Shown piece by piece: positions 3,836 through 62,219 of a stretch of 64,000 nucleotides of DNA; positions within the stretch are counted from its first letter, which is position 1, and every line of letters starts with the position of its first letter. Location: positions 1 to 64,000 of the forward strand of contig JAHQIW010000777.1 of assembly GCA_019055375.1 (NCBI GenBank), given 5' to 3'. Under the pieces are notes generated by a model that saw only the letters and a list, made by a program, of their open reading frames with translations, made no database searches and had not been told where the DNA came from. The DNA is from Parelaphostrongylus tenuis (taxonomy: Eukaryota > Nematoda > Chromadorea > Rhabditida > Metastrongylidae). The position numbers were made by a program, and so were the translations under genes.

Positions 3836-4300
3836 GGTGGTATCAATTGACATCTTGGAGCAAACTTGAAACTTTCGATGTGGAGGTTTGATAACTTCTT
3901 CTTCCATTCTGGATGAAATCGCTGCAACGCATGCACTTGATCTACTAAGAGCAACGCGCATGTTGGTGTTGTGTTGAAAATTTATCTCATCTGTTGCGAA
4001 AGAAAATGTCTAGATCTACTCCAATACCCTGATACACACGATTGCCTCTACATGCCCATCGCCCTTTGATGAATATACTATCTACTATGGGCGAAAGAGA
4101 ACTGTGTAAATTAAATGTGATTTTTTTTTAGCTTTAGCAGCCCCCTATAAAATAAAACTTTTCTCAGCAAAAATGGTTCTAGAATTAGTTACCTTATTTC
4201 GAGTGCGTTTATTAAGTACACGCTCAAATTTCAATAAATCCTTTCGTTATTATTTGAGCCAACACTTGTCATGTGGTCTGGTAAGTGCTTTTGTACCAGC

Positions 4301-4343
4301 CCGTATACACGTGTTTCGTCCTTACAGACTCGTCAGTCGGCGC
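4301..4343 (-). ncRNA. Hammerhead ribozyme, A left arm (decayed)
   Basis: Read on the - strand, the core is CUGACGA (4330-4336), stem II GUC/GAC, GAAA (4314-4317), then the palindromic stem III CAC/GUG (4308-4313) followed by UA. All conserved core bases are present. Stem I is damaged: the strand after the cleavage site starts UACGGG and the opposing strand is GCGCCGA, so only about four pairs form around a bulge. Self-cleavage is probably weak or lost. Confidence 0.65.
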
Positions 4344-4439
4344 AAAGCCCGTCGTCTTTCGATCTTTTTATTATCAGTTCTCTCGCGAGCCTGCTTTTCC
4401 TGCAGAGAGATATCGAAGATTGAAAGATGACGGTATTCT

Positions 4440-4485
4440 GCCCGACTGACGAGTCTGTGTGAGACGAAACACGTGTGTATCGGGC
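4440..4485 (+). ncRNA. Hammerhead ribozyme, A right arm
   Basis: A complete type I hammerhead. Stem I is GCCCGA (4440-4445) with UCGGGC (4480-4485). The core is CUGACGA (4446-4452), stem II GUC/GAC (4453-4455 with 4463-4465), GAAA (4466-4469), stem III CAC/GUG with a two-base GU loop (4470-4477), and UA (4478-4479). Cleavage is predicted after A4479. Of the six copies in the window this one has the most complete core and stem I. Confidence 0.8.
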
Positions 4486-4592
4486 TGTACAAGAGCCCTT
4501 ATCAGGCCATATGGCAAGTTGGCTCAAAAATGATGAAAGGATCTATTGAAAACTTGAGCGGCGGTCTTAATATAGCACTCGATATAAGGTAA

Positions 4593-6875
4593 AAACAAGG
4601 TCGAGTTTTACAAATTCGGTGAGCTTGGGTTACTTGCTAATTACACTTCAGGACAAGACGATTGATCACAATGGCCTAAAGTGTGTATACATGTGGAATG
4701 CAACTAGTTCTTCAATTGGAAATTTTTTTCCGTTTTGGAAGAGACTCCCAGATGAAACCGATTGACTCAGTTACTACAAAATTTCTTTACACTTCATATG
4801 TTGTTCGCACTTCCGAGGAGTTGTGCGCATGATAAAAATTGAAGACACGTTGCGATGTAAAATATAAATTAATTTTGAATTTTACAGTTTATAAAGTGAC
4901 TGTTTTGGAAAAGCAGGCCACTTACGGTTGTAGCCGAAGACTAAGTCTTCCGAATGATTGCTTTACACTCCTCTGAAAAAATCCCTGTTCATGTGAATGG
5001 GGCAGATTATTTATTCGTCGCCGTCTAACAAAATGAGCCTCTTATTCCATATACAGCTTATTGCAGTTGACAGAATGCCCACAAAATCTATAATCGCGTG
5101 ATGAGAGGGAGCTTTTTAGTCGCAAATCAGAGTTACATTGCACTAAAAGCATACAGAAGTTTAGAGGAAATCGAGAAGTGTAGGAGCATTACAAGAAACC
5201 CAGAATTATCTCTAGAATGGAAAATAAAGGTTATCAAACAACGAAGATGGCACTCCGTGCTGCCAATCACCCTGAGCGCGTGGATTTTTAACTGCAGACC
5301 CCGAAAGGGATAAAACAGCACTACTTAAGCTTACTCGAGACACGTTACTGAGGATTGTTTTCTGCTCCACAAATAGGATACTAAGACAGTCCTCTCACAC
5401 GGCGATTTCCGCACTCTCTTTTCAAGTCCTCTGATCGCACTAAGCTTCAATGAGCGCTTGAAATGCTACGAAAAGTTAAAGGCCCGCCTTACGACAATCT
5501 GACAACTGGACCACTGGCATTAAAGGTGTAAAGATTTGGTCAGGAAATGTAGACAACCGCTGACTATACGTACTTTTTCAATTTTTAAGCTCTCTCGTCA
5601 AAAATGTTTTTTCATCATCTGCCATTCACCAACCTGTTTGTCTCACAGCAAGTTTTGAAAAAAAACAAAGTGGTAGATCTACGTACTGTAACATAAACCT
5701 GAAAAATCAAATGATTAACGATACAGCTGAATTGTCGATTTATTGATCAGGCGGACACATCGGTCATTGACGTGGTTATCGATGCAAAAGTCATGTGTAT
5801 ACGACATCGAAAAATTTCATGTGACGAGTGGTCGATAATCTCGCGTAATTCCGGCTACTGTGGTATTCTCAGTCAGTCGCCATCCTCATGTACATCACTG
5901 TGGTCTTCGCCTGCTTCATCATGTTCATATTTTCTTTTCCTCTCAATATGTAATTTTCGTCCTTTGCACACAATGTCTTCAGGTTATATACACTTTAATT
6001 GATATTAATTTCAATTGACGGTGTTCATCTCCCATTAGAAACTTTCTTGCAGAAAACCCCTCTTTCTTTGGGACTGCGAAATAAGTTTCAGAGCTTCTCA
6101 AAAACTTGTTCTTGTTTTTTAATGGCAGAGAGAGCAGTGTATGGCAGCGGATGCTTTGCCCACACTGAGTTAAGAGAAAATAATGGCACTTTAGGTTTCT
6201 TCATGAATTAGCCGTTGGAAGTTGGGACCACAGGTTAGAAAAGGTCGTGAGTCAACAATATAGACGATTTAGCTTCTGAACGAAGAACACTCAGCTGTGT
6301 TTTTACCTTTTCGCTCCACGATCCTTCCTATTATGACACAGGAGTTGGACAAATACTAGTGTACGCAAGGGTGAAAGACTGCTCACAGCCACAGTCACGC
6401 TAACGCGGATAATTTTGTCTCTCATGTGGATTATACCACTAAGTTCATTCCATCTCTGAAAATCCGAGGAAAACATCAAAATACACGTTTTGTCATTTTT
6501 TTTACGACGAGCGTTTTTTGTTCATTGCCCGACATCTTGTAATATGTCTTACGCCCATAAATAAAGAAAGATCAACATTTTTAGGAGTGTGGTGAAATCC
6601 AATGCAACACAAAACCTGAGCTGTTACGACGTGATGATTCATCGCTAATAATGAGTGCATGTGGCGAACTGACTAGAAGTGTTTCACCAATGAAAACATG
6701 TGCTTTATTCAATGCTTAATGGGTCAACAAAGTCACAGTCTCTCCGGCATCAGCAAATTGTGCTCAACTAATTTTGAATGCTTTATTAGCATACTACATG
6801 GGCCGAGCAAGCATTAAAAATACACCTTCTCTGAAGAAGCATAATGTAAAGCAGTTATAAAGTAAATTAACTCCG
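4593..6875. other. No recognised gene
   Basis: About 2.3 kb between hammerhead element A and the PLE. I recognise no repeat family. One open stretch at 5116-5313 (+) has balanced amino acid content (a segment reads LKAYRSLEEIEKCRSITRN), but there is no convincing splice site or homology, so it is not called as a gene. Confidence 0.4.
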
Positions 6876-7439
6876 CGATTTTCCTTGGCTTCAGCAAACA
6901 CGAGATTTTTAATACAAGTTTATTTTGTGCAATGGTAGTATTATAGAGATCGTATACGTAGCTATCGTATCGGCATTCTTGCCTTCTTCGGAGCCTGACC
7001 TGAAAGAGTCTGACTGATCTGCATCAATTTAGTCAAACAGTTCCACAACCGAAACAGAAAGGAAAGGAAAGAGAAAAAAGAAAAAAATATTCAAGCAATT
7101 TTGAATCGTTAAATAATCAGCTAGATTTGACTCACATTTTCCGTTTGTTATGGTGTCCACCATATATGTAGACCAAGCCGCACTGAGTCTTACCATGGAC
7201 GAGGTGTGTGCCTGACTCAGACCGTAAGCTCGATCCACGATATGGAGCGAATCATGAGTGATTATGAGCGCTCATCTTTGCGATCATATCGGTGGTTTTT
7301 TGAAACGGATTCATTAACCACATCAGGGACTTTGCGCGCTATGGGTCACAAACGTTCTGGCGTAAGGATATTTACTTTTACATCACAAATCAACTCCCTC
7401 ATGTATCTGTGGCCCCGTGCGTACCTAGTGCGGTATTTG

Positions 7440-7640
7440 GTCTAGAATTACGTTTATCGGCTAGGTGTTCTTTTATAGACATATGAGTGGCCCTACGCGT
7501 TCGGCCAATGTACTTGCTGTCGCACGCCCTGCAACGAATCTGTTCGAGTAATCTGTGCCCTTACTCATGCAGTCACCGTCTTTACCGTTAGGACAAATTA
7601 TGCACTTTTTTGTTGTACATAGGCGATCGTACAAGCGATT
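7440..7640 (-). pseudogene. PLE GIY-YIG endonuclease fragment
   Basis: On the - strand this encodes CIICPNGKDGDCMSKG, the cysteine-rich lead-in typical of PLE nucleases. After a frameshift it continues CRACDSKYIG, which holds the YIG half of the active-site motif, and EHLADKRNSRPNTALGTH. In intact PLEs this nuclease nicks target DNA to prime reverse transcription. The frameshift between the two halves and stops downstream make it inactive. It is homologous to the + strand copy at 10690-11100. Confidence 0.7.
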
Positions 7641-8061
7641 GCGGAGTAGTCGGACGCCTCAAGATGTTTTCGGCGGTATCTCAATCATCGTAACCGATTC
7701 ATCCAAGCCTGCCCTTTTCAAACCACCGTCCAATGGCTATACATATTTTCATTTGTAAAAAAGGAAAGCACAAACGGGACCTTATTTTCAGCGGAGTTAT
7801 TTTTGTGGGGCACGTGATTTTCTCTAAACTTATCCCGGTGGACCACATTTTCGATAGCCATTCTGAATGGCTATTTGCGGAGCCATTCTACGGATTCCAC
7901 CTTTTGTTCTCTCTTGCTACACACGTAGGCAGCTGTACGGAAAATGTTTTTTATGAGCTCCTTTTTGAACGTGAGGGGTTAGATAAGAGATAGTGAACCA
8001 AAATGTTTTTGTTTGCTTGGCTTTGGATACCATACGTTAATGTAACCGCATTCAGATAGTT

Positions 8062-9120
8062 TTACTCGAAAGTTAGAAAAGGGAGCCAATTTTGAGGAGT
8101 CTCACGGGTGAATCTTATGTACTCTGACTGTTCGTTCATCAATTCAAGAAATCTGTCCATCTCTTCTTGTATGGAACAGATAACAAAGCAGTCAATGTAT
8201 CTACAGTAGAGTATTTGCTTGAGACTTATTACGGGAGCTGCCACGTTAGACATGAAAGCAATAGCAAGAACCGGTCCCAGTCGCTGAACCCTTGGCCTGT
8301 CTTTTTTTTCGCGAAATAATTTCCAGACCATCTGAAGATCGAACAATTTAGACGCTCCTTTAGGAGAACCATCAGCTGTTCAATAGACAAGTCAAACATG
8401 TTTAGTACTCATTGCTGCTGAATGAGGTGTTTTGCGAACGGCTTGTAATGCGGAGTCCATTAGATAAGCTCATATAAAAAGGCGCTAACGTCGAAAGACT
8501 CCTTTGCGTACGAGCTATTTGGACGCCCGTTCCTTAGGTGATCCAAGATGATTTGAGCATCAGTGAGGTGGACTGGATTGTGTCTTAACAACTTGTATAT
8601 TATTGGAACAAGAAAACCTCCTATTCTACTCGTAGGTTCGCATACACAACTAATGATGGGTCTGACCTTGAATATTGACAGATCCTTAGTAATAAGATCA
8701 TCATCACGCACTAACTTATGGGTTTTTATGGGCAAATATAAGGCAGGACACGTTGGTAAGTCAACTTTTGAATAAGAAATAATAGGTGATTTCAGATCAG
8801 CCGCTTTTTGCTACTCTAAGCCACTCATCATTTAAAGTTTGGTATTGCTTTATAAATTTTGTGAAGACGGTCGATAGTGTGTGACATAATTAAGATATTT
8901 TTTCGCTATATCAATATCTAAGTGATGAGGAATTACCACAAACTCCCCACTTTTATCACTAACGAAAAGTCCAATGTTTTTGGATTTTATCAAGTCCCGA
9001 ACCTTCCGCATTCCATGTTTTTGTAGTTCTGTAAGGTTGAAGCGGAACTTCCTCTGGCGATAGTGATTGAGTTCTTTGAAGGTATCGTTCGCAAATATCC
9101 GAAATTTCGTATTTATTTCA
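8062..9120 (-). pseudogene. PLE reverse transcriptase, copy 1 fragments
   Basis: Two long open segments (8735-8460 and 8346-8062) carry the PLE reverse transcriptase. The first has KVRPIISCVCEPTSR and FDVSAFLYELI, matching RT motifs 2 and 3. The second has LAIAFMSNVAAPVISL and then RYIDCFVICS, matching motifs 4 and 5. The catalytic box reads YID-C, where a second aspartate is expected (YIDD). The N-terminal part lies at about 9120-8770. Frameshifts separate the pieces. The same YID-C change occurs in both + strand copies. Confidence 0.75.
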
Positions 9121-9374
9121 TTGTTAGGGTCTTACTGTATATATAATTGTTGTGGAAATGGTGGTGACAATAATGCCCTTGCTTGTTGTTGTTAACTCTT
9201 ATTATGTTCTTCATCGTTAGTTTTTTTTACGGAGTCTGTCTTGAAGCTTTTGGAAACTGCACGCGACGTGCGCAAGACTACCTCAGAAATTGGCTAAGAC
9301 TGTAAAAAACTGAGACTCAATTCTAATACCTAACAAGCACTGCCAGACATAGCACTTTTTATACGAACGTGTCG

Positions 9375-9890
9375 AATGACTCTGCAGTACAAGCCATTCG
9401 CGAGTTCCTCATTCAGCAGCAAGGAGCAATAAACCTGCAGGGCTTGTCTATCCAACACCTGATGATTTTACTGAAGGAGTGCTTAAGTTGCTCGGTCTTT
9501 AGATGGTCTGGAAACTACTTCGCATAAAAGAGAGGGTTGGTAATGGGTCAGCAATTGGCACTGGTCCTTGCTATTGCTTTCATGTCCAAATTGGAAGCCC
9601 CCGTAATTAGTCTCAAGAAAATACTCTGCATTGATTGTTTTGTTATCTGTTCCACAAAAGAGATGGACAGATGTTCTGAGTCGCTAAACGAACAGTCAGA
9701 GTACATAGGATTCACCTGCGAGACTCCTGAAAAAATTGGTTTCTCTTCCTTAACGTCCAAGTAAAACTATCTGCACTCGACTACATCACTAAGTGGTACC
9801 GAAAGCCAAGGTACAAAAATATTCTGGTTCATTACCTCTCATCTCACCTTCCATATACAGAAAAGGCGCTCATAAAGAGTAACTCCGCCT
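9375..9890 (+). mobile_element. Penelope-like element, copy 2 (partial)
   Basis: About 515 bp covering only the C-terminal reverse transcriptase. The open segment 9537-9764 encodes LALVLAIAFMSKLEAPVISL, then CIDCFVICS (YIDD box altered to CID-C) and EQSEYIGFTCETPE. It starts at a boundary that repeats 505 bp later, where copy 3 starts, so copies 2 and 3 look like a partial tandem array. The copy is truncated on both sides and frameshifted. Confidence 0.75.
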
Positions 9891-11440
9891 TACAAGCCCT
9901 TCGCGAGCTCCTCATTCAACAGCAAGGAGTAATAAACATGTTCGGCTTGTCTAAGGCTCCTAAAGGAGCGGCTCCTAAGAAACGCCTAAATTGTTCGATC
10001 TTCAGATGGTCTGGAAATTATCTCGCGCAAAAAAGAGACTTGGCCAAGGGTCCAGCGACTTGGACCAGTTCTTGCTATTGCTTTTATGTCAAACGTGGAA
10101 GCTCCCGTCATTACTCTCAAGAAAATACTCTACTGTAGATATATTGACTGCTTTGTTATCTGTTCCATACAAGAAGAGATGGACAGATGCTTTGAATTGA
10201 TGAACGAACAGTCAGAGTACATAAGATTCACCCGTGAGACTCCTCAAAATTTGGCTCCCTTTTCTTAACTTCCAAGTAAAGCTGTCTGCATGCGGCTACA
10301 TTACCAAGTGGTATCCAAAGCCAAGCAACAAAAATATTTTTGGTTCAATATCTCTTATCTCACCCCTCACGTGTAAAAAAGGCGCTCAAAAAAAATTTTC
10401 CGTACACCTGCCTATGTGTACAGTTGGAGAGAGCAGAAGGTGGAATCCGTAGAATTGGCTCGGCAAATAGCCATTTAGAATGGCTATAAAAATGTAGTAA
10501 GCCGGGATAAGTTTAGAGGAAATCACGTGCCCCTCAACAAAACTTCACTGAAAATGAGAACCTGTTTGTGCATCCCTTTTTTTACAAATGAAAGAAGTAT
10601 AGCTAGTAGACGGTGTTACAAAAGGGCAGGCTTGGATGAATTGGCTGCAACGATTGAGATACCGCCGAATAATCTTAAGTGCCAGCTAATCCTCAATCGC
10701 TTGTACGATCGTCTTTGTACAATAAAAAAGTGCATAATTTGTCTTAACGGTAAGGACAGTGACTGCATTAGTAATGGTGCAGATTACTCGATCTCTTGCA
10801 AGGTATGCGGCAGCGAGTTCATTGGCGAAACGGGTAGGCCACTCTATGTCTATAAAAGAACACCTAGCCGATAAACGTAATTCTAGACCAAATACCCCAC
10901 TGGGTACGCACTGGACACAGATACATGAAGGAGATGATTTTGATGTAAAGTAAATAGCCTTGCGCAAGAACGTAAGACCTCACCGCGCAAAGTTTTTGAG
11001 GCTTTTGTGGTCCATTTCAAAAACCTCGATATGAATCGTAAAGATGAGTGCCTCGTTCAAGCGTGATTTCGCGCCATATCTTGGATCGATCTTTACGGAT
11101 CTGAGTCAGGCACACACCTCATCCATGTAGGACTCAGTGTGGCTGGTCTACATATATGGTGGATACCATAGCAACTAAACGGTGAATTAAATCTAGCTTG
11201 TTATTCTACGATGTAATTTGTCTAAATGTTTGTTTTCCTTTTTTTCTCATTTCTTCCATTTCTGCTTTGATAATGGAAGTCTTTGACTAAATTTATGTAG
11301 ATCAGTCAGACTCTTTCAGGTCAGGCTCTGAGGAAGGCAGGACGCTGAAACGATAGCCAGGGGTACGATCTCTATTGTACTACTTTGTACAAAATAAACT
11401 TATGTTAAAAGTCTCGTGTTTGCCGAAGCAAGGAAATTGG
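9885..11440 (+). mobile_element. Penelope-like element, copy 3 (5'-truncated)
   Basis: This copy holds the C-terminal RT (frames at 10086-10268 with RYIDCFVICSIQEEMD and EQSEYIRFTRETPQ), the linker, the GIY-YIG nuclease (10690-11100) and the 3' untranslated region. The 3' end at about 11300-11440 matches the - strand copy at 6880-7020. It starts at the same internal point as copy 2, so it never contained the N-terminal half. Stops and frameshifts break the frame. Confidence 0.8.
10690..11100 (+). pseudogene. PLE GIY-YIG endonuclease, copy 3
   Basis: The frame reads CIICLNGKDSDCISNGADY, then ISCKVCGSEFIGETGRPL, giving the PLE-type cysteine lead-in and a degenerate GIY-YIG pair (the second half is FIG). 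A one-base shift leads into EHLADKRNSRPNTPLGTH. Further on, FEAF and DMNRKDEC correspond to the conserved glutamate and asparagine region of the domain. Several indels inactivate it. In family members this domain makes the target nick. Confidence 0.75.
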
Positions 11441-12785
11441 CGGAATATTTCAGTCAATGTCGAGGTTAATCAATAGTCGGTCTTGGGAAGTAAAATAAGT
11501 GTTGAATATTGTTTCAAAGATCCACCTTGTGAAACAAAATTGACGACAACATGTTTCGTAAACATCGAGACCTCTTAGATGTTAGATGAGTAGTACTAAT
11601 GGCGTCTACTCTATCATAGTGTGATTGATATGAAAACAAAACGAGCACAAAATATCCAGAAATTAATTTCGCGATTGAATGTCAACTACGATTGACCATG
11701 ATCGCAGTACTTTAACAGTTCACAGGTGCAAAAGTCACGGTTGGTGTTAGAATTTCCACGCCTTGCCAATGATCTCCTCATAGTTTCGAATCCCTGCTAC
11801 ACCTCGCCTCTCTATCATCACAATTGATTGAAATCCCTGCCTCTATGTAACCGATGGTTCTTCAGTCAATACAATGGTAATTTGGCAACACAGTCATGAA
11901 GATTGGATTCACCTAAAATAGAATCGTTTTGAGATTACGGAGTGATTTCGTCTTTACTCCTTTGCTACACAACATCTCTTTGGAAGAATATCAGACGAAC
12001 AGAAGCGTACAATGCCTTGCTATTGGAGAATACCATAGGACTACTTATTCTGATCACGATGCCACAGAATGCATTAAAAACGATGAAAGACCGACAATAG
12101 CTTAAAAATTCTTGCACTAATCTTATACACGTTTTTCAAAGCTGTAATAAAAGTACGGCATTCACAACAAGGCCCCAAATCATCATGTCCCGCAAAAATT
12201 ACCTCTGATTCAAACTCTGCATGACGAATTTGCAAAAAGCTCGACAAAGCCGAGAAAACGAGTGGTGAGAAAAAAGAAGAAGGCAGTGATTCATTCAATT
12301 ATGGCATGAAACTGCTGCTTTGCCAGTGAAATGCTAATAATGCGGCTGTGGATAATTCGGAAAGAATTTGCAGTATTATCTGGTGAGTAATTTCTCCTTA
12401 CTCTTGAGCTCGAAAATCACCTACGCTACATGTATAAGATAAAATTTGACTATTCTCACACTTGAATAAAGGCGATATAAGCAGTGAATTGAGTGGTGAC
12501 GACGTTCTCGCGTGCTTGAAACAGAGTGGTAAGCGTTCCTGTATTTCTGAAGTTTGGCGATTTCAGGTGTCATTCGGTGCAAAAGAAATGTCAGTTTATG
12601 CATTATTAAAATTTTCGTTTGGTATTTGAGTAAACTCTTGAAAAAGGTGACTATGTTATATATCGTTCTAATGTGCATTTGTGGATCTGTGTTTTGTTAC
12701 TAATGACGCTTTACTTGCTTAAACAATGGAAGGCATGTTGGTTGGTGCATAGGTAATTGAGCTTCAAGGTGTGAGTACGAAACGT
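11441..12785. other. No recognised gene
   Basis: About 1.3 kb of AT-rich sequence after the PLE. A - strand segment ending near 12212 (reads SALSSFLQIRHAEFESE before a GTAATT donor-like site) is the only hint of an exon and has no clear acceptor, so it is not called. Confidence 0.35.
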
Positions 12786-17610: not shown

Positions 17611-17724
17611 AGAATCTTGAAATTATACCTTTATCTCGAGTGCTTTGTTTAAACCACGCTCAAATTTCAATATATCCTTTCATCATTATTCGAGCCAACA
17701 TGTCATGTGGTCTGGTAAGGGCTC

Positions 17725-17756
17725 TGTTTCGTCCTTACAGACTCATCAGCCGGGCA
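17725..17756 (-). ncRNA. Hammerhead ribozyme, B left arm (deleted)
   Basis: On the - strand CUGAUGA (17743-17749), stem II and GAAA (17727-17730) are intact. The roughly 21 bases that should follow, holding stem III, the cleavage site and the 3' strand of stem I, are missing: GAAAC runs straight into AGAGCCC. The ribozyme cannot cleave. Confidence 0.75.
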
Positions 17757-18174
17757 GAACCCGTCGTTTGTCGATCTTTTCATAGCCAGTTCTCTCGGGA
17801 GCGTCACACTCCTTATATATAGTTATCGACGACGTTCGCTTTACACTCTATGTCAGGTGAAACATTCACCTAACACCGAGTGTTGTGCACTCGATTGCTC
17901 ATTGCACTCGAAGAGGTATAATTATGACAAAAGTACCAGCCAATGAGCAAAGGATATATTGAAATTTGAGCGTGGTCTAAACAAAGCACTCGAGATAAAG
18001 GTATAATTATGACAAAAGTACCAGCCAATGAGCAATCGAGTGCACAACACTCGGTGTTAGGTGAATGTTTCACCTGACATAGAGTGTAAAGCGAACGTCG
18101 TCGATAACTATATATAAGAAGTGTGACGCTCCCGAGAGAACTGGCTATGAAAAGATCGACAGACGACGGGTTCT

Positions 18175-18217
18175 GCCCGGCTGATGAGTCTGTAAGGACG
18201 AAACACGTGTTTCGGGC
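18175..18217 (+). ncRNA. Hammerhead ribozyme, B right arm
   Basis: Stem I is GCCCGG (18175-18180) with UCGGGC (18212-18217), one G-U pair. The core is CUGAUGA (18181-18187), stem II GUC/GAC with a six-base loop (18188-18199), GAAA (18200-18203), stem III CAC/GUG with no loop (18204-18209), U18210 and U18211 at the cleavage position. GUU sites usually cleave less well than GUC or GUA. The loopless palindromic stem III suggests activity as a dimer, as described for PLE hammerheads. Confidence 0.8.
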
Positions 18218-19379: not shown

Positions 19380-20240
19380 TAGTTCTTTCTGTTAGACGGA
19401 AATGAGTAAAGAAATACTTCCATTTTCTGAACAGAAGCTTTTCAAAAAAGTGCTAGTGATTATTCGAAAGCTCAAGTCACTGTATACCGGAAAGCTAGAC
19501 AGTTTTTCGAGAAAGCCTTTACGACGCTGAAACATACCACATAGAATTATCTTTTGAGTATTAATATGTTAAGCGACGATGAATTTGAACCGATCCTATT
19601 TGCTGGAGAGAAACTTTTCATAGAAGTGTTAATAATCATTCGAAAGCTTAAATCTCTGGCTGCAACACCATTTTGCTATTTTTTTAACAGCCTTCTATAG
19701 CGCTGTAAGATTCAAAATAAAATAATGCTTCACGCTTCATTTTAGCTTTCATTTTTATCACACCGCTGGAAACACAAGAAGCATATCGGCGTGTAGAGAG
19801 TTTTCCGTACTATCAGAATCATATGCGTTTTATCTAAAGTGTGCGTATAACAATAGTTGCCACCGTTTTATCTCAGAGTGTGGTAGATTACTATCGAGCT
19901 ACGCGGTAGATCAGGCGACTTCCTTACCAACAAGTCTCGTCGCTGTGGTTTTTCATTCACATTGCCCTGAACTATGCTTCTCGTGCTTTCAGAGAGTTTT
20001 ACGCTTAATAAAAATGAAGGCGGAAGGCGAGTGTGAAACAAAATCTCTTTTCTGGATGTTACAGCGTTATAAAAGAGTGTTTTGGGAAAGCGACAACGTG
20101 GCTAGGCAGAGATTTGAGCTTTCGAATAATTTCTAACACTATTGAGAAAAGTTCCCCCCCCAGCGGGCGATATCAGTTCAAAAATTTGTTGTCTTCTAAC
20201 ATATAAGTACCATGCTTTGCACCGGTCGCTCGCTTTCACT
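19380..20240. repeat. Satellite-like repeat units (about 175 bp), mixed orientation
   Basis: Diverged copies of a unit with anchors TTACAGCGTTATAAAA, AGATTTGAGCTTTCGAAT and CTAACATATAAGTAC. Two units at 19430-19720 lie on the - strand about 175 bp apart. Another on the + strand starts near 20060. They belong to a family found in many places in this window (30.5-32.6, 34.8-35.1, 38.8-39.8, 43.9-44.5, 47.4-49.1 and 52.4-55.0 kb). No coding capacity. Confidence 0.6.
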
Positions 20241-20929
20241 AAGACTTCGCTTTAGCTTCGAAACGGATGTGAACGTGTCGAGGAATCTTGGGTATCAGAG
20301 TTGCAAGTTTCACCTAGAGTTTCCTTGAATTCGGAGAAAAAATCTTGAATCAAATAACAAAAATTACACGGCACATGCGGGTGTCGCCAAAGCGATCAAT
20401 CGATTTATCGCGGAAAGCCGTGTCGAATTCACGGCTAACAGGTGCCCAGCCCACACACTAGCTAACAAAAAATCAGCCGCGAATGTGGAACTTGATTCTA
20501 CCTTTCCTGATACACTTCAACGGAACTGTCTTTCCGGAAAATAAGCACAAGATTGAATCCACACAAACTTGCGTTATCAGTAGATCACCTATAACGAGGA
20601 AAGATTTGCGTCCTGAGAGAAACATGAGTGCCTGTGAAACACAAATCTTTTCGTTACAGTGTTGTAAAAGCTTTTCAAACAAGAATCTACATATTGCAGT
20701 ACTCAGGGGTTTAAGCTTTGAATTAATACTGAAACTGCATGAATATCGTCCATCAAAAGGGGTCGTTTCTTCATTGCGCCGTGTGAGGAAATGTACTCTA
20801 CTTTTTTTCTATTATGAAAAACCAAGCTATTCGTGTAGCATGAGCAGGATGGATTTACCCGTGAAGCGTTTCGCTATATTTCAGCACTCTGTTGGGCTCG
20901 CTTCAGCTTTCGTGAATTATGTTTTTACA

Positions 20930-21461
20930 TCCTTTTTTGCTCTCGCAATTCATCAACTGCCGCTCGAAAAAAACTTTTGATCTTCGTATACTCGATTATG
21001 TTGTTTTCCAACCTGTTTTTGCCCTTCACCTTTCTATGTACATCTTGCAGTTCTGCTATCACCTCCATCACCGACGCGGAAATGGTTAAACACAGCAGTT
21101 TAGCTGCGATACAAGAACCGTGACTTAGGAGAACCAAAAGCAAAACTTCTTATCGTTATTTATGGCTTTATGCGGCATTTTAAGTAATCTATAGGCAATT
21201 TTAAAGCAGATATTCGCTGAGAACAAGGAATGAAACAATGAGGTCGAACTATTGTACTGCGTATTTGTGTCATAGGAAGGCGCCGATTGGGTCACTCATA
21301 TCAAAAAGGAACAAGAATAAACATTTCTGCGTGTCCACATCGTACCTTAGCTTCGAACTCGTGAGCAAATTCGGCGTGGAATTGAGCGAATCCTTTAAGT
21401 CAATCAGTGACGTTACAGATTCATCACGCTCTGATTGCAATTTTTCACGTTCATTTTCTGC
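20930..21461 (-). pseudogene. Coiled-coil gene remnant, copy 1
   Basis: Two exon-like segments on the - strand. The upstream one (21461-21346, 116 nt) follows a TTGTTCAG acceptor and ends at a GTACGA donor. It reads AENEREKLQSERDESVTSLI, a heptad-rich sequence. The second (about 21085-20930) reads AELQDVHRKV and KNRLENNIIEY, with a frameshift before AAVDELREQKRM. The duplicated copy at 55220-55440 keeps the same features with different lesions, so a real coding ancestor is likely. The protein family is unknown; coiled-coil is inferred from composition. Confidence 0.45.
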
Positions 21462-21639
21462 CTGAACAAGTAGAGCACAGATATTGTTGGCGCTTTTGAA
21501 TGTTCCTACATCACTATACCTAATCCCACACTGAATAAGTGGTTGAAGACTAGATGCTCGTAGATCGGTTGCCCTTGAGACTTACTTAGACACTACTTAT
21601 TTGGGTCCTAATGTTATCACATATCTGACGACACATGCA

Positions 21640-22990
21640 CTTATCGCCCAACCTGCCTGCTGTCCGTTGTCTAAAAACTCTTCACTGGAGTCATCCTAAA
21701 CAGAATTGACAGAACAGGCAGCCATGGGAAAAGCAGAGTTCCGAAAAGGACTTAGTACCATAGACCACATCCTCACAATCACAAGACTCACTAAAGTTTC
21801 GCGAGAGCAAAATTTCCGCTCTGTCTCACTTTCATGATTTGAAGAAGGCCTTTAATTCACTGGAAATAGAAGCGGCTACAGAGGCTCTGGACGATCAGGG
21901 CGTCCCTACTCGGTACATAACGATCCTTCGCGAGCTATGTAAAGATTTCATGGCCAAAACATTACCATTCTACAACAATATCTTTTTCGACGTAAGAAGA
22001 GCAGTTCGACATGGCAATACAATATTGCCAAAATTATTCACTATCACGCTCCAAAGCGTCATGCGAACATTAGAATGAGACAATATGAGAGTGAAAATTG
22101 ACGATAGGCAAGCAGAAAGAATGTGAGCGATTTCGACAGCGCCTGTGAAAGGTTGGCCTTCAACCAAATCTGACAAAAGCCATGTTCACAAGGAACGGAT
22201 GGATCTTGAATGCTTTATTTACGCTCAACGAAGCGATATTTCCGAATGCTCCAGTTACGTCCATCTAGGCCGTGAAATTAACGTGATGAACGATCTAGCT
22301 GCAAAGTTGAGCAGGAGGAAAAAAGAGGCTTGGAGCGCGTTTAAGAGCATCGGGGGTGTAGTTAAGAGGACAAAGAACATACGACTCCGTGCACAACTCT
22401 TCGACTCGACGATTATCCCGACCTAATGTATACTGCAGAAACATGGTAGCTACGTAAGGAAGATGAAAGATCACCTGACGTTATTGAACGCGCACTCGAA
22501 AGGTCGATGCTAAGAGTATTCCTTTGCTCGCATATGAGAGAAAGGATCGAAGTTGCGACCTAATCGAGAGTCAGCGATCGAGAACCAGAGACGCCGTTCT
22601 ACACGCTCGGATATCGAAAATAAGGTGGGCTGGACACGTGATGCACTTCAACGACAACCAATGGACTAGAGCCGTTACCGATTGGATTCCTCGAGATATC
22701 AGGCGCTTCATAAGAAGACCACCGACCCAATAGTCCGATTTCTCCACGAAAGGCCTAGATGACACATATGTTGCCCAGCAAACCAATAGAGCGAGGAGTA
22801 TCTACTGGACCACTCTTGCACGCGATAGGAAGAAAGGGAAGTGATACTGGAGTCCGCTCGAATCACACGGCGATCAGCGGGACGACAGGTGATGCAGGTG
22901 ATGACCATGTTTGCTTTGCACTATGCAAGAAGAGGCAGTCGTGTTCTGACAAAACCAAGGACTGACTGCAGCCTGAGATCTGTGCAAGAA
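21640..22990 (+). mobile_element. RTE-type LINE fragment within duplication copy 1
   Basis: RT and C-terminal region of an RTE retrotransposon. The frame at 21839 encodes KKAFNSLEIEAATEALDDQG and the block ending VRHGNTILPKLFTITLQ. Later come SSYVHLGREINVMND, KEAWSAFKSIGGVVKRTKN and DAVLHARISKIRWAGHVM. About 60 bp containing the catalytic FADD box are missing between 22108 and 22109, compared with the paralogous copy at 56090. Stops and frameshifts also break the frame. The 5' half, including the endonuclease, is absent. Confidence 0.8.
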
Positions 22991-23099
22991 TGATCGTCAA
23001 ATGAAGGCCTGCTCTGGAATATGAACCATTTGGCAATTCAATGAGTCTACTGCCACAAAAGTGCCACTTTTCACAGTGAAGATTGATCTAATTCACTCG

Positions 23100-23440
23100 C
23101 TTGCCTCTTATATCCGTTTTTCGTTTCTTTTCGGACCAAAAGTTAGACAATAATTAATTGAAGTTCAGAAAATTTCTTCATAAACAGTTTCACCGTGTTC
23201 AGTTGTACAAACTATCTATTTGAATTCGTTGTGAATACTTAATTAAACATCTGGTGGAAGGATTTGAGGCAAGCAAGATTGTGGAAATAGACGAGTCGTT
23301 GTTCTGGAAGAGAAAAAGATGGTTATGTTGAAACCTCAACAATGGAACGTTTGACGGAAAGTCGTCAAAAAAGGCAATGCTTCCTGGTTTAGTTTCAGAT
23401 CGTGAAGCATTGATCCTACTGACTCAAAAACAGCAATGTC
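23100..23440 (+). pseudogene. Merlin-like transposase fragment, copy 1
   Basis: A degenerate copy of the open segment at 57115-57453. The recognisable core is KIVEIDESLFWKRKRW, followed by a stop and frameshift, then SDREALILLTQKQQ. The EIDE(S/T)LF-KRK block is the first catalytic region of the DDE transposase domain of IS1595/ISXO2-like and Merlin elements. Copy 1 continues into about 740 bp (23434-24176) that copy 2 lacks. Confidence 0.6.
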
Positions 23441-24335
23441 GAATTTTTGACGATTCGATGAGATTGTTGAAAATGTGACAGAACGGACGATGTTCAAAAG
23501 GTAAGTTTCTAACACACAAGGATAACCACCCACCATTTTATGGATCAGCACACAAACAATAAAATTTTATTATTGCTTAATGCAAGTGGCATATATGCGC
23601 AATATTCGGTCTTCGAGGCAGTGTGTCAACTACCTTATTTTGAGTATGTGGAACCGGCCTGTGTTGCATTGGTATTTTGCGATAGTTCCATGTGAATAGC
23701 TCTATTTAATAGAGGTTCGACGGAAAGAAAATGCAGAAAATGCAATTTTTTGTCGGTTTTGTTGTTGTGTTCTTCTAAAGAATGTGCCGTTTGGAGTCCA
23801 TTGATTCACGTCAAACAAATTATTTACATGAACACTGCCTTGACTTCGTAGGTGGCTAATATGCCTACCAAATTTGTCAAGCGGACCGCTTTTTATTTAT
23901 GCATCAAGTGACGCTTATACTATAGTGCTCTAGAAAGTAATCATAGAATTCCTTTGAGGCAGTCGTTCGACGAGTTTTCACTTTCTCCTTTGCTATAATA
24001 AGCTTCATAGGGATTATGAAGATGTGGTCTTTAAGACAGAAGAGCGTGCTGATTCTTTTTGGCACTGAGTGGCCTGAAATCTAAGACTGCGCAGTTATAT
24101 AAAAGAGCAATCGATTATCTCTCTTCGTAGCAACTCTCCAGCTGTGAAGAAGGTTTGCCTACAGCCAAAAATGGTATGATTAGAGTTGTGTGTATTCGAT
24201 TACTGTTTCATAGAATGAGAGGCTCATCAAAGTGCCTACACACTTATTACTCATTTTGCCTTCTTGCTATATTATTGATTTTCTGTTTTTTATATTAATA
24301 ATTAGCGTAGGAAGAGTGGTGTCAAAACCAAATTT

Positions 24336-24440
24336 GGCGTCGGTAGCGCAAAGGTTCAGCACGCGCCACCGGATAGGGTGAAGCGTGCATTCGAACCTAG
24401 CTGACGTTAATGGTTTTACACATCACTCTTTATCATTGGG
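24336..24440 (+). repeat. tRNA-derived SINE (family GCGCYGGTAG), duplication copy 1
   Basis: Contains a Pol III A-box-like CGGTAGCGCAAAGGTT and a B-box-like GCATTCGAACC, followed by the family tail CTGACGTTAA and ACATCACTCTTT. It aligns with 57608-57715, 46321-46430 and 27808-27905. There is no acceptor stem pairing, so it is not a functional tRNA gene. Confidence 0.6.
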
Positions 24441-26403
24441 TCAATTATTTTCTTTTATTTTGTTCGTAATCCGAAGGTAAATTTTCTTTTATTCAGAAAA
24501 GCATGACAATATTTTGACACTTCATATGTGAGTAATGGGATCCCATTCAACGCTTTAGGAGTTGCACATCACTCAACAATATTGGATAAATATTTTTATT
24601 ACCATACCATAGCTGAGAGAGGATAACAAAAAGAACTCAAGATGATAATACTTTATTACATCGTTCTAAGATATGTAAGATGGTACTGGTGCATGCGCAC
24701 AATTTGTGCAATTAAAGCTTAACTGATCAAACATTTATACCAAAATTTATAACATAAATAACAGATCCGAGGTAGGAGATTACATTTTGTGCCAGTTTTA
24801 GAAAATCGCTTTCTTTTAAAGTTGACAACTTTTCTTCCTTGCCAAGAACAGTAAAATATTTAGAGTTGGATGCGGTGGCTTGCTTTTGCGCAAAATTTAA
24901 AGCAATAGAGGCATTAGTGTGTTAAAACCCTTCAGTTTGCTTCATCGGATTCTATTTCGTTTACTCGCATTGATCAACTCTCAAATCTAACGTTAAGAGT
25001 TAGTTTTCTGGAAATGCGAGTTAAAATCGATTATTTTTGCCGACATGAAAAGCTCAGATACACACTCATTCTGAGCATTCCGGTCAAATCTGTAGACCTC
25101 AATGTGAAACTCATCAGGCTTTCTCCTCAGTTTTATTTATGCTATAGATTTTTCAGTTATTAACTTGAGCCTATGGTCTTTTCAGCAGAATTACTCCAAG
25201 CTCTCTTGTAACACTTCAACTTCATTCCTCACTTGGTGGATTGAAATAGAGGTAAGCCACTGAGAGATAAAGTCTGAGATTGCTTTGGCGCCCAGTCGTA
25301 GCGAATATCCAATGGGTTTCTATAAGCGGGTCAATGGGCTTTGTACACACAAGAAAGGTGATTGAATGTGGAACTGAATGCTCTACTTCGGTGGCGGATC
25401 GAGCATGGCTCATTGTAAAGCTCCACTACATGATGGACACCTCCACTCCACTACAACACAGGCCTTAACTCGACGGCAACTCAGCACCCACCGCCAAAGG
25501 TTCGACCACCTCAATGGTGAAAATGCATAAATGATAACTATGGGTCATTAAATTTTGACGTGGCGGATGCTTGACACGCGGAGCTTTCTCCGTAAAACTA
25601 CCAAGAACCCAACTGAAACATTTGTATTATAATTCCTAAATGGTCGACGCTATTGCCATGGCAGTCAAGAACTGGAAAAGTGAAAAACAGCAACAAAATT
25701 GTGCGAGAGTTGCCATACTGCCAAACCTTTCTCTTGTGTAGTGACAAAGGATGTTAGCTTAGGAACACCAAAAGAGAGAAGCTCAAGGATAACAAATTTT
25801 AACAAATCAAACTAATTCTAAGATTAGACGCAATTTCACTACACTTCAAACAAACAAGCTTTCCATCTGCTTCCCTGGGATCAAGTTGTAGCAGTAATTT
25901 CAAAAACATATGATTTTGCCATAGCGTAGGATGAACTGACAGCATGGACAGATTCTTCACTTTTGTAGTTTTTACATTTGTGGGAACTACCTAAACACGC
26001 AATTTCATTTTTTGACAGTTCCCCTATTGCGTTCGCATAGAGCAAATCAAGTGCATCCAGAAAATTTTTGATATATCTACGATATACTATCACAGCATTT
26101 CGAGGCCTTCACGAATGTTCTTCAAATTTTGTTCACGCCGTCTTCCATGAGCACCAGAGCGATCCGTCAAGTTTGACATTGCCAGCGGGTACGAGATGAA
26201 ACATGATCTTCGCGTGATTCTAAAATGTCTAGCTGTCATGGAAGATTGAGGTTAGAAAAGGAATTGTGAAGAAAATGGAAAGCGTCATTTGCTTCAGAAG
26301 GACATGATCAGATAAGGATTGGTGTACACAAAGAGCGCTTGAACAATAGCACTTACTGAAACGTACATGACATACAAGATATAAGAAGTCGGACAAAATA
26401 AAT

Positions 26404-26530
26404 GAAATCTTCATAATATCTCACCAGAAATCTTTCAGGGAATATAGGTGGCACGGAGTGGCCAGAAATATGTGGGAAAGGTTGAGAACAGGTATACGAA
26501 GGAACCAACAAACAGCATTTTAAAGCAGAA
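26404..26530. repeat. Single copy of the 172-bp unit triplicated in copy 2
   Basis: This block, starting GAAATCTTCATAATATCTCACC shortened to its first 20 bases GAAATCTTCATAATATCTCA, aligns with the tandemly triplicated unit at 61696-62180. Here it occurs once, giving the pre-expansion state. Confidence 0.65.
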
Positions 26531-26559
26531 TCGCGGCCTACTACTTAATTAGAAGGATG

Positions 26560-26850
26560 AGCGAAAGTAACTATAAACCACGATAGCCTCGCCCCTTCCG
26601 TTTGGGACGATAACCCAGGCACCCAATCTCCCGGGTGCGTGGATCAGAGCAATTGAAGAGACAACAAGTGACATAGAGGGTGCTGTCCCGAATGCCTCTG
26701 CTTCTATGACCTGACATTACTTGTTGGTTCACGGCACTCTCAAAAAACTGTGAAGTAGCTTTTGGATTACAAACGAAGCGATTACTTGGAAGGCACCGTG
26801 GTCGAGTGGTTATGATGCTAGTCGCGGCGCGCAGGGCCGAGCTCCACATC
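26560..26850 (+). repeat. SINE-like block with Leu/Ser-type tRNA head, copy 1
   Basis: The sequence CCGTGGTCGAGTGGTTATGA (26797 onward) resembles the D-arm region of Leu or Ser tRNAs, followed by a GC-rich stretch GTCGCGGCGCGCAGGGCC. The adjoining 26571-26780 is conserved with 62240-62430. On the - strand both copies show a similar open frame (CCLFNCSDPR and CCLFGCSDPR), which I take as repeat sequence, not a gene. No intact B box. Confidence 0.4.
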
Positions 26851-27807
26851 ACCTCTCCCTCCCCAACACTCTGCGGTAGTCAACAATTAACACTCTATAA
26901 AACGCCATAGACAGCGATGTTCTTATATCTATCCCTATATCTATCCATATCCTATAATCCTAAGCTATCCTCAAGGTTTCAAGGAGAGTCGCTCAACAAC
27001 TGTTATAAAACGTCCAAGAGGAAGGCGTGAAACGAGCTAAATGCTAGAACTATTGTTGTTCGCACAGTGAAAAAGCACTGCGAAGACGGATCAATAAAAC
27101 GTCAAATTTCACTTGAAAGTAGCTATAATCTTCATAAGGTTCAAGCGATGAGAATTTTTTGGGCTCGACAAGAAATCTTTCTTTTTGCTCTTAAAGTGCT
27201 CTGTAGAAATTGTATACCTTAATTGCTACAACGCTGTAAGAAAGGCTTTCTGAAAGCAAGTACACTGTCAAATTCGTTCAAATCAGGTTTCAAATAGAGA
27301 CTAAAGATTTGAGAGAAAAATTGTCTAGTGATAAACGCCTCTAGACAACCGTGTAACAGCACAGGTAGGTGCCGTCTCGGGCAGGTTACCTTTATTTACT
27401 GCCCGGTAGTATGGGTTTAGTTCAATGCACACTACCATTCTATCCTAGTGCTTCAAACATTGTCACACTTGTCAGCCACGTAAATTTAGGACTAAGCGTG
27501 AGTAGAGTGCAATAGTGTCACTATTAGTGTTCATACTGTACAAAGTACAACTTCCCCTTGGTGCCGCCGAAATATGTCATCATCTGTCAAAGAAAATTCA
27601 ATGACATCGTCTCCACATCAAAGTAATAAATGCATACCTCATTTTCTTCATATGAAATATACGTCGCTTTCGGTGACGGAGTGTTGTTAACTTCCGCTGC
27701 GATCCCCAGACGACATCGAAAGTAAACATTGATAACGTTTTGTACACCAATTACAACCACATCAGAACACATACTATGTCAAGTGAGGAGGGCTGTTGAC
27801 AAAACAG

Positions 27808-27905
27808 GCATCGGTAGTGCAACGAACAAGAGCACACGCTCTTGTATGAGGTGAAATGCGGGTTCGAGTTCCAACTGACGCAAGAGTTTCGCACTTCACC
27901 CAATG
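27808..27905 (+). repeat. tRNA-derived SINE (family GCGCYGGTAG)
   Basis: A-box-like TCGGTAGTGCAACGAACAAG and B-box-like GGGTTCGAGTTCC followed by CAACTGACGCAAGAGTTT, the family's tail. Same family as 24336, 46321 and 57608. Confidence 0.6.
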
Positions 27906-28051
27906 TCATGAGGTATATGTGATATGTCAGTAGTAGCCGTCAAAGATCACTAAGAATGTGGATAATCTTGAGGCAAAATCAAATGGTTGTGTTTATATAC
28001 TTTATTTCCATCATGACTAACGTCTATTGCTTAGTTGCAGCGTGACTACGA

Positions 28052-28390
28052 TGAGTGAAAGTCGAGGAGTAAACAACGAAGAACGACAAGTTCGTAATTT
28101 GACGCTCTTTTTTTCAGTGACCACTTAAATGACTTAATGAGCACGTTATAAGAAACAGCGAGTCACCTGCTGAAAAGGATGTGTCTGAAGCACAGAATAC
28201 ATGCAACCGTCGAGATCAAATGCTATTGTTGAATGCTATGGAAATTGTAACATCAGTGAGACAAGAACGGCGATTGCAAGAGTTTCACTGTCAAGTGAAT
28301 GCCATATATAATTTCCTGCAGAAAAAAACAGTGCAACCTAAAGCTAATCCAATAGAAGACAGATTTTTGCCTATGCCCATTAAAGAGGGG
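28052..28390 (+). CDS. Candidate gene fragment, interrupted by a SINE
   Basis: A TTAGTTGCAG acceptor precedes a short frame starting ATG at 28051 (reads MSESRGVNNEERQ). After a strong TTTTTTTCAG acceptor at 28117 a second segment has one apparent frameshift near 28130, then reads LLLNAMEIVTSVRQERRLQE and NAIYNFLQKKTVQPKANPIE up to LPMPIKEG. At that point the SINE at 28390 begins, so the exon is cut. The two segments are only 28 bp apart, too short for an intron. The final LP-PIK pattern is faintly like DUF4806 proteins, but that is weak. Probably a broken gene. Confidence 0.35.
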
Positions 28391-28692
28391 AGCATATGGC
28401 ACAGTGATTAGAGGCGCCCTCCGTCGCACACAAGGTTAATGGTTCTATTTTGCGCTTATGGCTCACCAAGCTAGCAATCCCTGCGTGGTCGGTAAATTGG
28501 TAACAGACAGATCTCAGACTTGCCTGGGAGGGTAAGCGCACTGACTTGCTACAGCGAAAGGCCATGGCGAGTCATTGTAGAGGCCCAATATGCATTCAAT
28601 CACCTCAAAGATGTTGAAAATTGACGACGAATGCATGGCGCATCTCTCAGGGATGATCAACGCCCAGAGCTTTATCCTTTATCTTTTTATGT
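28390..28692 (+). repeat. tRNA-derived SINE (about 300 bp), copy A
   Basis: Head GCATATGGCACAGTGATTAG has a degenerate A box; a B-box-like GGTTAATGGTTCTA follows. The body contains GGTCGGTAAATTGGTA and CAGACTTGCCTGGGAGG, and the tail ends GAGCTTTATCCTTTATC. It aligns end to end with the - strand copy at 63250-63555, whose A and B boxes are much better kept (TGGCGCAGTGG and GGTTCGATCTC). Confidence 0.8.
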
Positions 28693-29400
28693 CCTGTAAT
28701 AAAGAAAAACTAACACTCGGATACTGGACTGCCACCAAAAGCGTTGCTGGCCCTCGAAGTGAGCGAAGTCATCTGGTGCGCGATGCAAATGGATTGCGAT
28801 TGAAGCGCGCCAGTCCAATCCAAGCGCGGTTCTTGCGTGGAAACTGTCTTCATAATGTCAATATCTAACAAAATTCTACATCTTCTTGAACGAGATAGAA
28901 AATGTGGCTTCTAAATTTAGACCAATTCAGCTTTGGACTGTTCACTCTATAACATGAAGCTTTTTCCTGCCTAGGAGGAAATCGAACGAGATACTATGTC
29001 TGTATTGCAAGTAACCTCCAGCGTTGCGCTTTACTTTTGCCCGATTTGATGTTTATACATGAAACAACAGATCTGATAATAAAATTAACAAATTGATTGG
29101 CTACTCAGATCTCCGTGATTGTAAACTGTCAAACTGCTCCGTTGCCTCTTGGCAATGTCTTCAGTAAATCTTTCGTATCAATTACTTCCCCTCACTCTAG
29201 CACATGAGCTCATTTATTTTTTAACTAGCAAAAGGCTTCGTGATGATAGCTCAAAGTGTCCCATTGTGGAAATCGGACATACTCACTTATATCTTTCCAG
29301 GAGCTGATGTGAGCTTATCACTTCAACATACTATCACATAAATCATTCAGCTGATTTGATTGTGACCTCTTAAAAGAATCGTTATGCTGGATAGCACATA

Positions 29401-29540
29401 TCTCATATATATGTACATATAATCACATATATATATGTGCATATATATATACACGTATTTACATATACATATATGTACATATATATATATGTATATATAT
29501 AATATATATATGTATATTTTATATATATATATATACTTAT
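29401..29540. repeat. TA-rich microsatellite
   Basis: Alternating AT with embedded GTACAT and GTGCAT variants. The duplicated counterpart is 63556-63662. It likely folds as a long hairpin. In copy 2 a SINE has inserted at its edge; here that site is empty. Confidence 0.85.
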
Positions 29541-29850
29541 TTGGATGAACGGACGGTCCGCTTCAAGAATTGTGAGAAACTCTGCACATTTTTAATTGTT
29601 TCTTATTTTCGCAATTGACGTCCATAATGGTAGATTGATTCGAGTATGGCGGGTGGCGAGAGTTCCACGTTGTGATTTGTAAATTATCGACACCCGCGAG
29701 TGCAGCTGATTAATTCTTCAAACGAAAACGTCTTCCCAACGTGATGGTAGTCATCCCTGAGGTCGTGTGTCAGTTCGTTTCGTCCATCGGTCGTCAGATC
29801 TTCTTACTACATAACCGACCCATCTGTTCCGCTGTTTATGTAGATTCTTC

Positions 29851-32560: not shown

Positions 32561-32728
32561 TTTGTGCTACCGAATGGTGGCAGAAAGTCCGACTGAAAAC
32601 TTCTATTCAGCTATAATGCTTGAGTGTGAAAAGAAAATTGATACTTATACAGATCCTTTTATATTGAGCCTTTTATATTTTATTATTTGAGCCAACTTGT
32701 CATGTGGTCTGGTAAGGGCTCTTGTAGA

Positions 32729-32771
32729 GTCCGATACACGTATTTCGTCCTTACAGACTCGTCAGTCGAGC
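32729..32771 (-). ncRNA. Hammerhead ribozyme, C left arm
   Basis: On the - strand: CUGACGA (32759-32765), stem II GUC/GAC, GAAA (32743-32746), stem III UAC/GUG without a loop (32737-32742), then UA with cleavage predicted after it (between 32735 and 32734). Stem I is GCUCGA with UCGGAC, containing one mismatch and one G-U pair. The core is complete, so it may still cleave slowly. Confidence 0.75.
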
Positions 32772-33131
32772 AGAACATCGTCTTTCGATATCTTTATAGT
32801 CAGTTCCCTCGAGAGCTCCATTCCCTTATAGAGAGTCGTTGAAGACGAACGTTTTACACTCTATGTCAAGTGAAATTTTTACCTGACACAAAGTGGCACT
32901 CGGCTGCTCATTAGCTGGTATTTTTATCATATTATACCTTTATTTTGAGTGTATATTTATTTAATATAATATAAATACCAGCCTACGAGCAATCGAGTGC
33001 GAAAACACTTTGTGTTAGGTGAAAATTTCTCTTGACATAGAGTGTAAAACGTTCGTCTTAGACGACTCTCTATAAGGGAGTAGAGCACCCGAGAGAACTG
33101 GCTATAAAAATATTGAAAGACGATGGGTTCT

Positions 33132-33173
33132 GCCCGACTGACGATCTGTGAGGACGAAACACGTGTATCGGGC
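33132..33173 (+). ncRNA. Hammerhead ribozyme, C right arm
   Basis: Stem I GCCCGA/UCGGGC is perfect (33132-33137 with 33168-33173). CUGACGA (33138-33144), GAAA (33156-33159), stem III CAC/GUG and the GUA cleavage site (after A33167) are intact. The first base of stem II, the conserved G after CUGACGA, is missing, which breaks the G10.1-C11.1 pair and probably reduces activity. Confidence 0.75.
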
Positions 33174-33429
33174 TGTACAAGAGCCCTCACCAGACCACAT
33201 GACAAGTTGGCTCAAATAATAATGAAAGGATCCATTGAAATTTAAGCGTAGTCTTAATAAAGCACTCGAAACAAAGGTATAATATGATACTTATATGTTA
33301 GGCGGCGACAAATATTCAAGCCAATTTCATTTGCTGAACAGGAAATTTTTATAAGAGTATCTGTGCTTATTCGAAAGCTTAAATCTCTGCCTCTAGAAGA
33401 TTCAAGTATGCATCAGCATAACAAGATTA

Positions 33430-62180: not shown

Positions 62181-62219
62181 AGGTCACTATTTAATTAGGA
62201 GGATGAGCAAAAGTAACTG

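Follow-up and report, generated by a model that had tools for sequence, protein, structure and literature searches.

Introduction

Metazoan retrozymes without long terminal repeats (LTRs) have been described, in the portions of PMC7229834 available to us, as tandem repeats with a type I hammerhead ribozyme. Their probable means of movement is discussed in a 2020 review, the accessible part of which states that they have no conserved motif from which an autonomous mover could be deduced and names Penelope-like elements (PLEs) and Terminons as likely candidates (PMC7761336). A rotifer Penelope element typically has a pair of pseudo-LTRs in direct orientation and, next to them, an inverted one; a tail of 31 bp may be present on one of the inverted copies, and target duplications measure 8–10 bp in the cases seen (PMC3846280, in the text open to us). 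The Anolis PLE known as PAc cuts each of the two strands and extends it, and its tail spans the interval from one internal start site to another (PMC11167929). Here we analyze a 64,000-nt stretch of the nematode Parelaphostrongylus tenuis (assembly GCA_019055375.1, contig JAHQIW010000777.1, positions 1–64,000; "the window"), which contains three short elements, E1, E2 and E3, and a decayed PLE. With a probability of about 0.65, we consider E1–E3 to be members of a non-coding, hammerhead-bearing, retrozyme-like family with a 320-nt unit, for which a resident PLE supplies the protein that inserts the RNA.

The family is like the metazoan non-LTR retrozymes of PMC7229834, as far as that source was accessible, in its type I hammerhead, its unit of about 300 nt, its lack of a coding part, its low GC content (below 45–50%), the occurrence of a minority of direct tandem copies and target duplications longer than 4 bp. 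It is unlike them in that most copies read here are inverted dimers with one end at each of two preferred sites, A and B. With plant LTR retrozymes (PMC4918200; features as summarized in the same portions of PMC7229834) it shares a non-autonomous nature and the presence of a hammerhead; the plant elements differ in their type III hammerheads, long terminal repeats and 4-bp duplications. The likeness to PLEs lies in the inverted layout, the tail at one end and the target duplications (8–10 bp in the available text of PMC3846280, ~10–16 bp here), and in a hammerhead close to the insertion end (PMC11167929). Unlike PLEs, the unit has no reverse transcriptase or endonuclease frame, and its hammerhead is fuller and has a palindrome as stem III. 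An initial annotation, made from the letters of the window, had regarded an inverted dimer as unusual. This is apt for retrozymes; it does not extend to Penelope, for which the accessible part of PMC3846280 describes an inverted layout as typical, and such a PLE lies in the window itself. The terms "inverted", "antisense" and "nematod" are absent from the main text of PMC7229834, and among the matches listed in a search of the open-licence literature we found neither inverted retrozymes nor any retrozyme from a strongylid nematode reported.

Inverted dimers of a 320-nt unit in the window

E1 (4189–4592), E2 (17623–18271) and E3 (32650–33284) had been taken in the initial annotation for inverted dimers of one unit of roughly 320 nt, and the alignments bear this out. 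The inverted arms are 78% identical over 424 positions in E1, 90% over 262 positions in E2 (99% within a 180-nt core) and 85% over 553 positions in E3. The unit length of 320 nt was read in L029, a direct tandem copy at another genomic site; the GC content of that unit is 44.7%, and the arms of E1–E3 have 39–46%, apart from one 67-nt piece with 33%. A unit of this length is too short for a frame with reverse transcriptase and GIY-YIG endonuclease, and such frames sit in separate elements.

There are two preferred 3' ends, ~50 nt apart, and most inverted copies read show one of each. Site A comprises unit positions ~315–320 and the opening bases of the following unit (AAGGTATAAT), and site B lies at ~266–289, near unit position 277 (GAAAGGAT). 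E2 has an A end with a tail on the left and a B end without a tail on the right, and its right arm contains a tandem unit junction. The right end of E3 is likewise A, with a tail; its left end is in the B zone, slightly rearranged and without a tail. In E1, both outer ends are at site A and the arms are 5'-truncated, covering unit positions 320–130 on the minus strand and 154–320 on the plus strand. Target duplications of 12 bp flank E2 (AGAATCTTGAAA, 17611–17622 and 18272–18283, plus strand) and of 11 bp flank E3 (TGATACTTATA, 32639–32649 and 33285–33295, plus strand), and the borders of both elements are exactly the DNA that these duplications enclose. We looked for a target duplication around E1 and found none. 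That E1–E3 are fragments of the window's PLE was considered and rejected, the similarity being limited to short chance matches.

Orientation and ends of the genome copies

The genome assembly (481 Mb) was searched with E2, which gave 4694 first-look candidate places, 40 of them scored. The sample contained 37 unit-bearing stretches, or 34 after removal of duplicates (L024, identical to L023; L028, to L027; L037, to L036); a mirrored second element in L023 was dropped as well, and an extra stretch, L046, has no unit match. The 34 loci comprise 27 inverted, 6 direct and 1 complex, in a sample that favours inverted copies and is neutral for neither orientation nor ends, since E2 itself is inverted and ends at A on one side and at B on the other. 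An orientation-neutral query, a 131-nt hammerhead stretch of L029, gave 1170 places (40 scored). Nine of 24 new places were sampled from these: six were chosen regardless of orientation, and L097, L098 and L099 were chosen for opposite-strand pairs and enter the count of ends below and not that of orientation. Five of the six are inverted and the remaining one is a single direct unit. Combined, 40 distinct loci comprise 32 inverted, 7 direct (one a single unit) and 1 complex (L042). On the basis of these copies we reject a local accident as the source of the inverted layout, a possibility raised in the initial annotation.

Two direct tandems, L029 and L035, have more than two unit copies with no coding part between them. 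Among direct copies, L027, L029, L035, L040 and L100 have their end at A, L033 and L038 theirs near B, and the 5' ends vary; target duplications accompany L029, L033, L038 and probably L040. Target duplications were found at 20/36 loci (median 13.5 bp), compared with 27/1260 mismatched flank pairs, and E2 and E3 are additional to these. Their length is variable, ~10–16 bp. Terminal inverted repeats together with target duplications are what a palindromic DNA transposon, either a miniature inverted-repeat transposable element or a foldback element, would have, and such a transposon might have acquired a hammerhead-like sequence. We give this explanation next to no weight. Symmetric ends with a duplication of fixed length were not found: the duplications vary, the ends are asymmetric, five direct copies (L027, L029, L033, L035, L040) combine a preferred 3' end with variable 5' ends, and the hammerhead is conserved.

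The asymmetry of the ends was scored in 38 inverted elements (27, plus E1–E3, L097–L099 and L101–L105), of which 37 were scorable, L103 extending past its stretch. Thirty are A/B, counting L023 and E3, in which a rearranged end was scored as A or B by eye; one is A/A, one is B/B, and five have one end elsewhere. Under independence, 30 A/B among the 32 elements with both ends at A or B has p = 1.2e-7. Two different fixed outer ends on most inverted copies fit two reverse transcription starts at the time of insertion better than a preformed inverted dimer. The initial annotation had proposed the inverted dimer as the mobile form, and neither this end pattern nor the existence of direct copies with target duplications supports it.

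Some insertions with the same flanks occur twice in the assembly, in direct or mirrored orientation (C2515 and C1526, C2217, C1119 and C2337), as might be expected if the assembly contained haplotype contigs or large inverted duplications.

Junctions and relatedness of the arms

The insertion ends lie 64 and ~112 nt beyond the point at which the hammerhead is predicted to cleave, and unit junctions fall inside the arms of E2 and of many copies. Therefore, the template would be longer than one unit or circular, with reverse transcription starting within it. At the center of the inverted elements the arms are joined with an overlap of 0–3 nt or with filler of up to 35 nt; L025 has an overlap of 18 nt.

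To compare arms, pieces shorter than 100 nt were excluded, and the comparison of shared variants also excluded the second element of L011. Opposite arms of one element have 55/678 mismatches at 33 informative sites, compared with 20716/61567 between loci, a figure that mixes subfamilies. Because opposite arms mostly share variants, like RNA would usually serve both. There are exceptions: the arms differ at 8/29 sites in L017 and 7/28 in L021, and those of L044 also differ (range over the three, 5–8 sites), and in L034 one unit of 98% identity is joined to units of 85–88%. Together, the mixed units of L034 and the differing arms of L017, L021 and L044 indicate that template change happens.

These data bear on a snap-back explanation, in which the first complementary DNA (cDNA) folds and copies itself, so that an inverted dimer arises from a single reverse transcription start. 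Such a course would suit the haplotypes, which are mostly common to opposite arms, and palindromes at the inverted junctions of rotifer Penelope have been interpreted as self-priming (PMC3846280, accessible text). Snap-back predicts, however, that the same outer end is found twice, whereas A and B were observed together in 30/37. Moreover, most junctions join distant unit positions, and a self-copied hairpin is hardly expected to give the arm differences of L017 and L021, nor does it accord with those of L044. We judge snap-back to be improbable.

Hammerhead motifs

A hammerhead-bearing, non-coding, retrozyme-like family had been suggested initially, and the younger genome copies agree with this. 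In a search of nine unit-bearing loci, Rfam model RF00163 (Hammerhead_1, gathering score 34 bits) passes in 17 arms with 34.9–36.8 bits, distributed over L009, L012, L025, L026, L027, L029, L033, L036 and L044; in L009, L012, L026, L036 and L044 it passes on opposite strands inside one element. Two PLE loci scanned alongside have no RF00163 match. The strict full hammerhead pattern is present in 47/72 motif-spanning arms and CUGANGA in 66/72, and core positions are nearly invariant (G8 in 75/75 arms, A6 in 74/74). Covariation is weak evidence here because pairing changes are few: G-U alternates with A-U at the base of stem I, and one double change, C-G to U-A, was found in outer stem I. In a putative hairpin around site B, the paired positions hardly vary, so covariation is uninformative there. 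The predicted cleavage site is mostly GUC in the young family; A stands at the cleavage position in 18/83 arms, E1 and E3 contributing to this number. Most arms have a UGUACA bulge in stem I and UGUAAG in loop II. Searches of viral contig and genome contig collections with exact hammerhead patterns gave 0 matches.

The Rfam scan of the window, E1–E3 included, has no match at gathering score; RF00163 is found in E1–E3 in E-value mode, below that score. Three arms carry a type I hammerhead matched by Hammerhead_1: the right arm of E2 (18175–18217, plus strand; 31.0 bits, E = 0.0011 for the whole window; predicted cleavage after GUU), the right arm of E1 (4440–4485, plus strand; 28.5 bits; predicted cleavage after GUA) and the left arm of E3 (32729–32771, minus strand; 26.1 bits; predicted cleavage after GUA). 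Damage is apparent in the others. The right arm of E3 (33132–33173, plus strand; Hammerhead_1, 19.7 bits) has a 1-nt deletion in stem II. Cores in the left arms of E1 (4308–4353, minus strand) and E2 (17721–17760, minus strand) match Hammerhead_3 well below gathering score, and their cleavage sides are damaged by extra bases and deleted (~20 nt), respectively. Thus, E1–E3 do bear hammerheads, as the initial annotation had it, and an intact core in every arm is more than the damaged arms allow.

Stem III is the 8-nt palindrome ACACGUGU, which makes it very short as a single hairpin. Minimum-energy folding of three arms alone gave no complete hammerhead. The palindromic stem III would permit dimeric hammerheads, as reported for axolotl and PLEs (PMC7229834 and PMC7761336, in the parts accessible).

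Several minor matches accompany these. MicroRNA and other Rfam names appear below gathering score in the unit and window scans, several of them sitting on palindromes. L012 has an extra Hammerhead_1 match outside the 320-nt unit (785–832, plus strand; 32.8 bits, below gathering score), which is possibly another retrozyme family. A short near-perfect hairpin matched on both strands in L009 (3035–3158) is probably a palindromic DNA element.

Penelope-like elements in the window and the genome

The window's PLE (6871–11487) is decayed and is itself an inverted dimer, with its endonuclease ends outward and a tail at the right end only. Its arms (6872–8456, minus strand; 9882–11444, plus strand) are 83% identical over 1604 positions. 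At the right end, 32 nt match the tail of young PLEs (0/1000 shuffles as good); the left end has no such match. Target duplications were read by eye at 6860–6870 (AAGTAAATTAA, plus strand) and 11488–11498 (AAGTAAAATAA, plus strand), with 1 mismatch; an automated search, which used slightly different borders, found none for this element. A reverse transcriptase frame fragment (8460–8810, minus strand) is 61% identical over 110 aa to residues 184–293 of the PLE frame of L074, which lie partly within the RVT_1 domain of that frame (244–410); taken alone, the fragment has no Pfam match. A GIY-YIG endonuclease frame fragment (10479–10874, plus strand) has no GIY-YIG match alone, and its single relative P0001 carries PF01541. 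Decayed minimal hammerhead motifs of PLE type are present in the right arm (11324–11358, plus strand; identified by eye against intact copies) and the left arm (6961–6995, minus strand), neither with an Rfam match. The young PLE likewise has a minimal hammerhead motif that was read by eye and has no Rfam match.

A genome search for the endonuclease gave 10839 first-look candidates, 150 of them scored, with open stretches of up to 978 codons. The frame of L074 has both RVT_1 and GIY-YIG domains. Among named proteins, the best relatives of the PLE protein of this genome come from Necator (60% identity), Ancylostoma (59%) and Haemonchus (54%); solved structures searched for the PLE frame gave 0 matches. 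Among the 150 matches listed, the endonuclease ends point outward in 10/10 opposite-strand pairs within 6 kb, and two same-strand pairs are spaced ~2985 bp. A one-sided tail was found in 12/13 scored inverted pairs (11/12 genome copies and the window copy; p = 0.0017). The genome copies were 9 scorable pairs chosen for opposite orientation, of which 8 have the one-sided tail, and 3/3 others; C2903 was unscorable, and C4566 was counted as tailed by eye despite an indel in its tail. Both the unit and the young PLE L055 have 64 nt between the predicted cleavage site and the short end.

Given these layouts, the units might instead be what remains of an autonomous PLE family that lost its coding part, namely its paired pseudo-LTRs, rather than an independent retrozyme family. 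Rotifer Penelope has inverted pseudo-LTRs with an optional tail and also solo pseudo-LTRs (PMC3846280), and hammerheads occur in PLE pseudo-LTRs (PMC7761336; both sources as far as accessible). We nevertheless regard this origin as rather unlikely. In a non-exhaustive sample, 29/30 PLE stretches of ~3.4 kb have no unit match, and the other, L068, has two weak ones (E = 0.002); the hammerhead motif of the PLEs seen is, by eye, a different and minimal one; and the direct tandems L029 and L035 have more than two units with no coding part between them.

Proposed insertion mechanism

We return to the reading of E1–E3 as retrozyme-like elements inserted by a PLE protein. In this model, multimeric transcripts would self-cleave. 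The PLE ribonucleoprotein would cut both strands of the target, and each target 3' end would prime reverse transcription, with one start at A and the other at B. The two cDNAs would then meet, and their joining, with short filler or hardly any overlap, would yield an inverted dimer; priming from one strand alone would give a direct copy. A stronger form of this proposal is that the retrozymes here are obligate PLE parasites, that a symmetric ribonucleoprotein primes both strands and uses A and B once each, and that insertion normally yields inverted dimers, direct copies being a half-reaction. We offer this tentatively, at somewhat less than an even chance. The insertion products bear a PLE-like signature, namely an inverted pair with one tail, by which the guess of PLE mobilization becomes testable, and the 4694 first-look candidate places are a large natural set of insertions from which the integration mechanism can be read.

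Several observations weigh against insertion by the PLE protein from two starts. We rejected a resemblance in sequence between the end zones of the unit and of the PLE, as they are no more similar than shuffles (255/500 and 72/500 as good); because of this, the link to the PLE is one of layout only. In PAc, the start sites used in vitro are equal between strands, and hammerhead cleavage is not needed (PMC11167929). The end rule has exceptions in E1 (A/A), in L025 (B/B) and in L016, L019, L026, L097 and L101 (one end elsewhere). Most copies were found with E2, an inverted A/B query, and in the end-neutral sample A/B ends are present in 5/7 scorable inverted elements. Among PLEs, C1421 is tailed on both sides, and few loci were read of the 10839 candidates. 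With respect to the arms, the between-loci mismatch figure suffers from its mixing of subfamilies, and the opposite arm is the nearest neighbor in only 10/66 comparisons (same-strand neighbors, 4/36). Finally, 14 inverted copies (L009–L015, L017–L023) share a central junction zone, in which positions ~1–17 are joined to 232–268, and independent events need not produce such sharing.

The zone common to these 14 copies would be accounted for if the inverted dimer were the replicating unit, with a hairpin RNA transcript reinserted whole. However, the junction sequences differ among the 14, the junctions of other, younger copies are scattered, and the same young family includes direct copies. We therefore hold a replicating dimer to be very unlikely.

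Other repeats in the window

A block of ~11–12 kb is largely doubled in direct orientation (18993–29744 and 51890–63871), with pieces of ~72–87% identity. A tandem repeat at 61688–62178 has a 172-bp period and 2.9 copies, with 89% matches.

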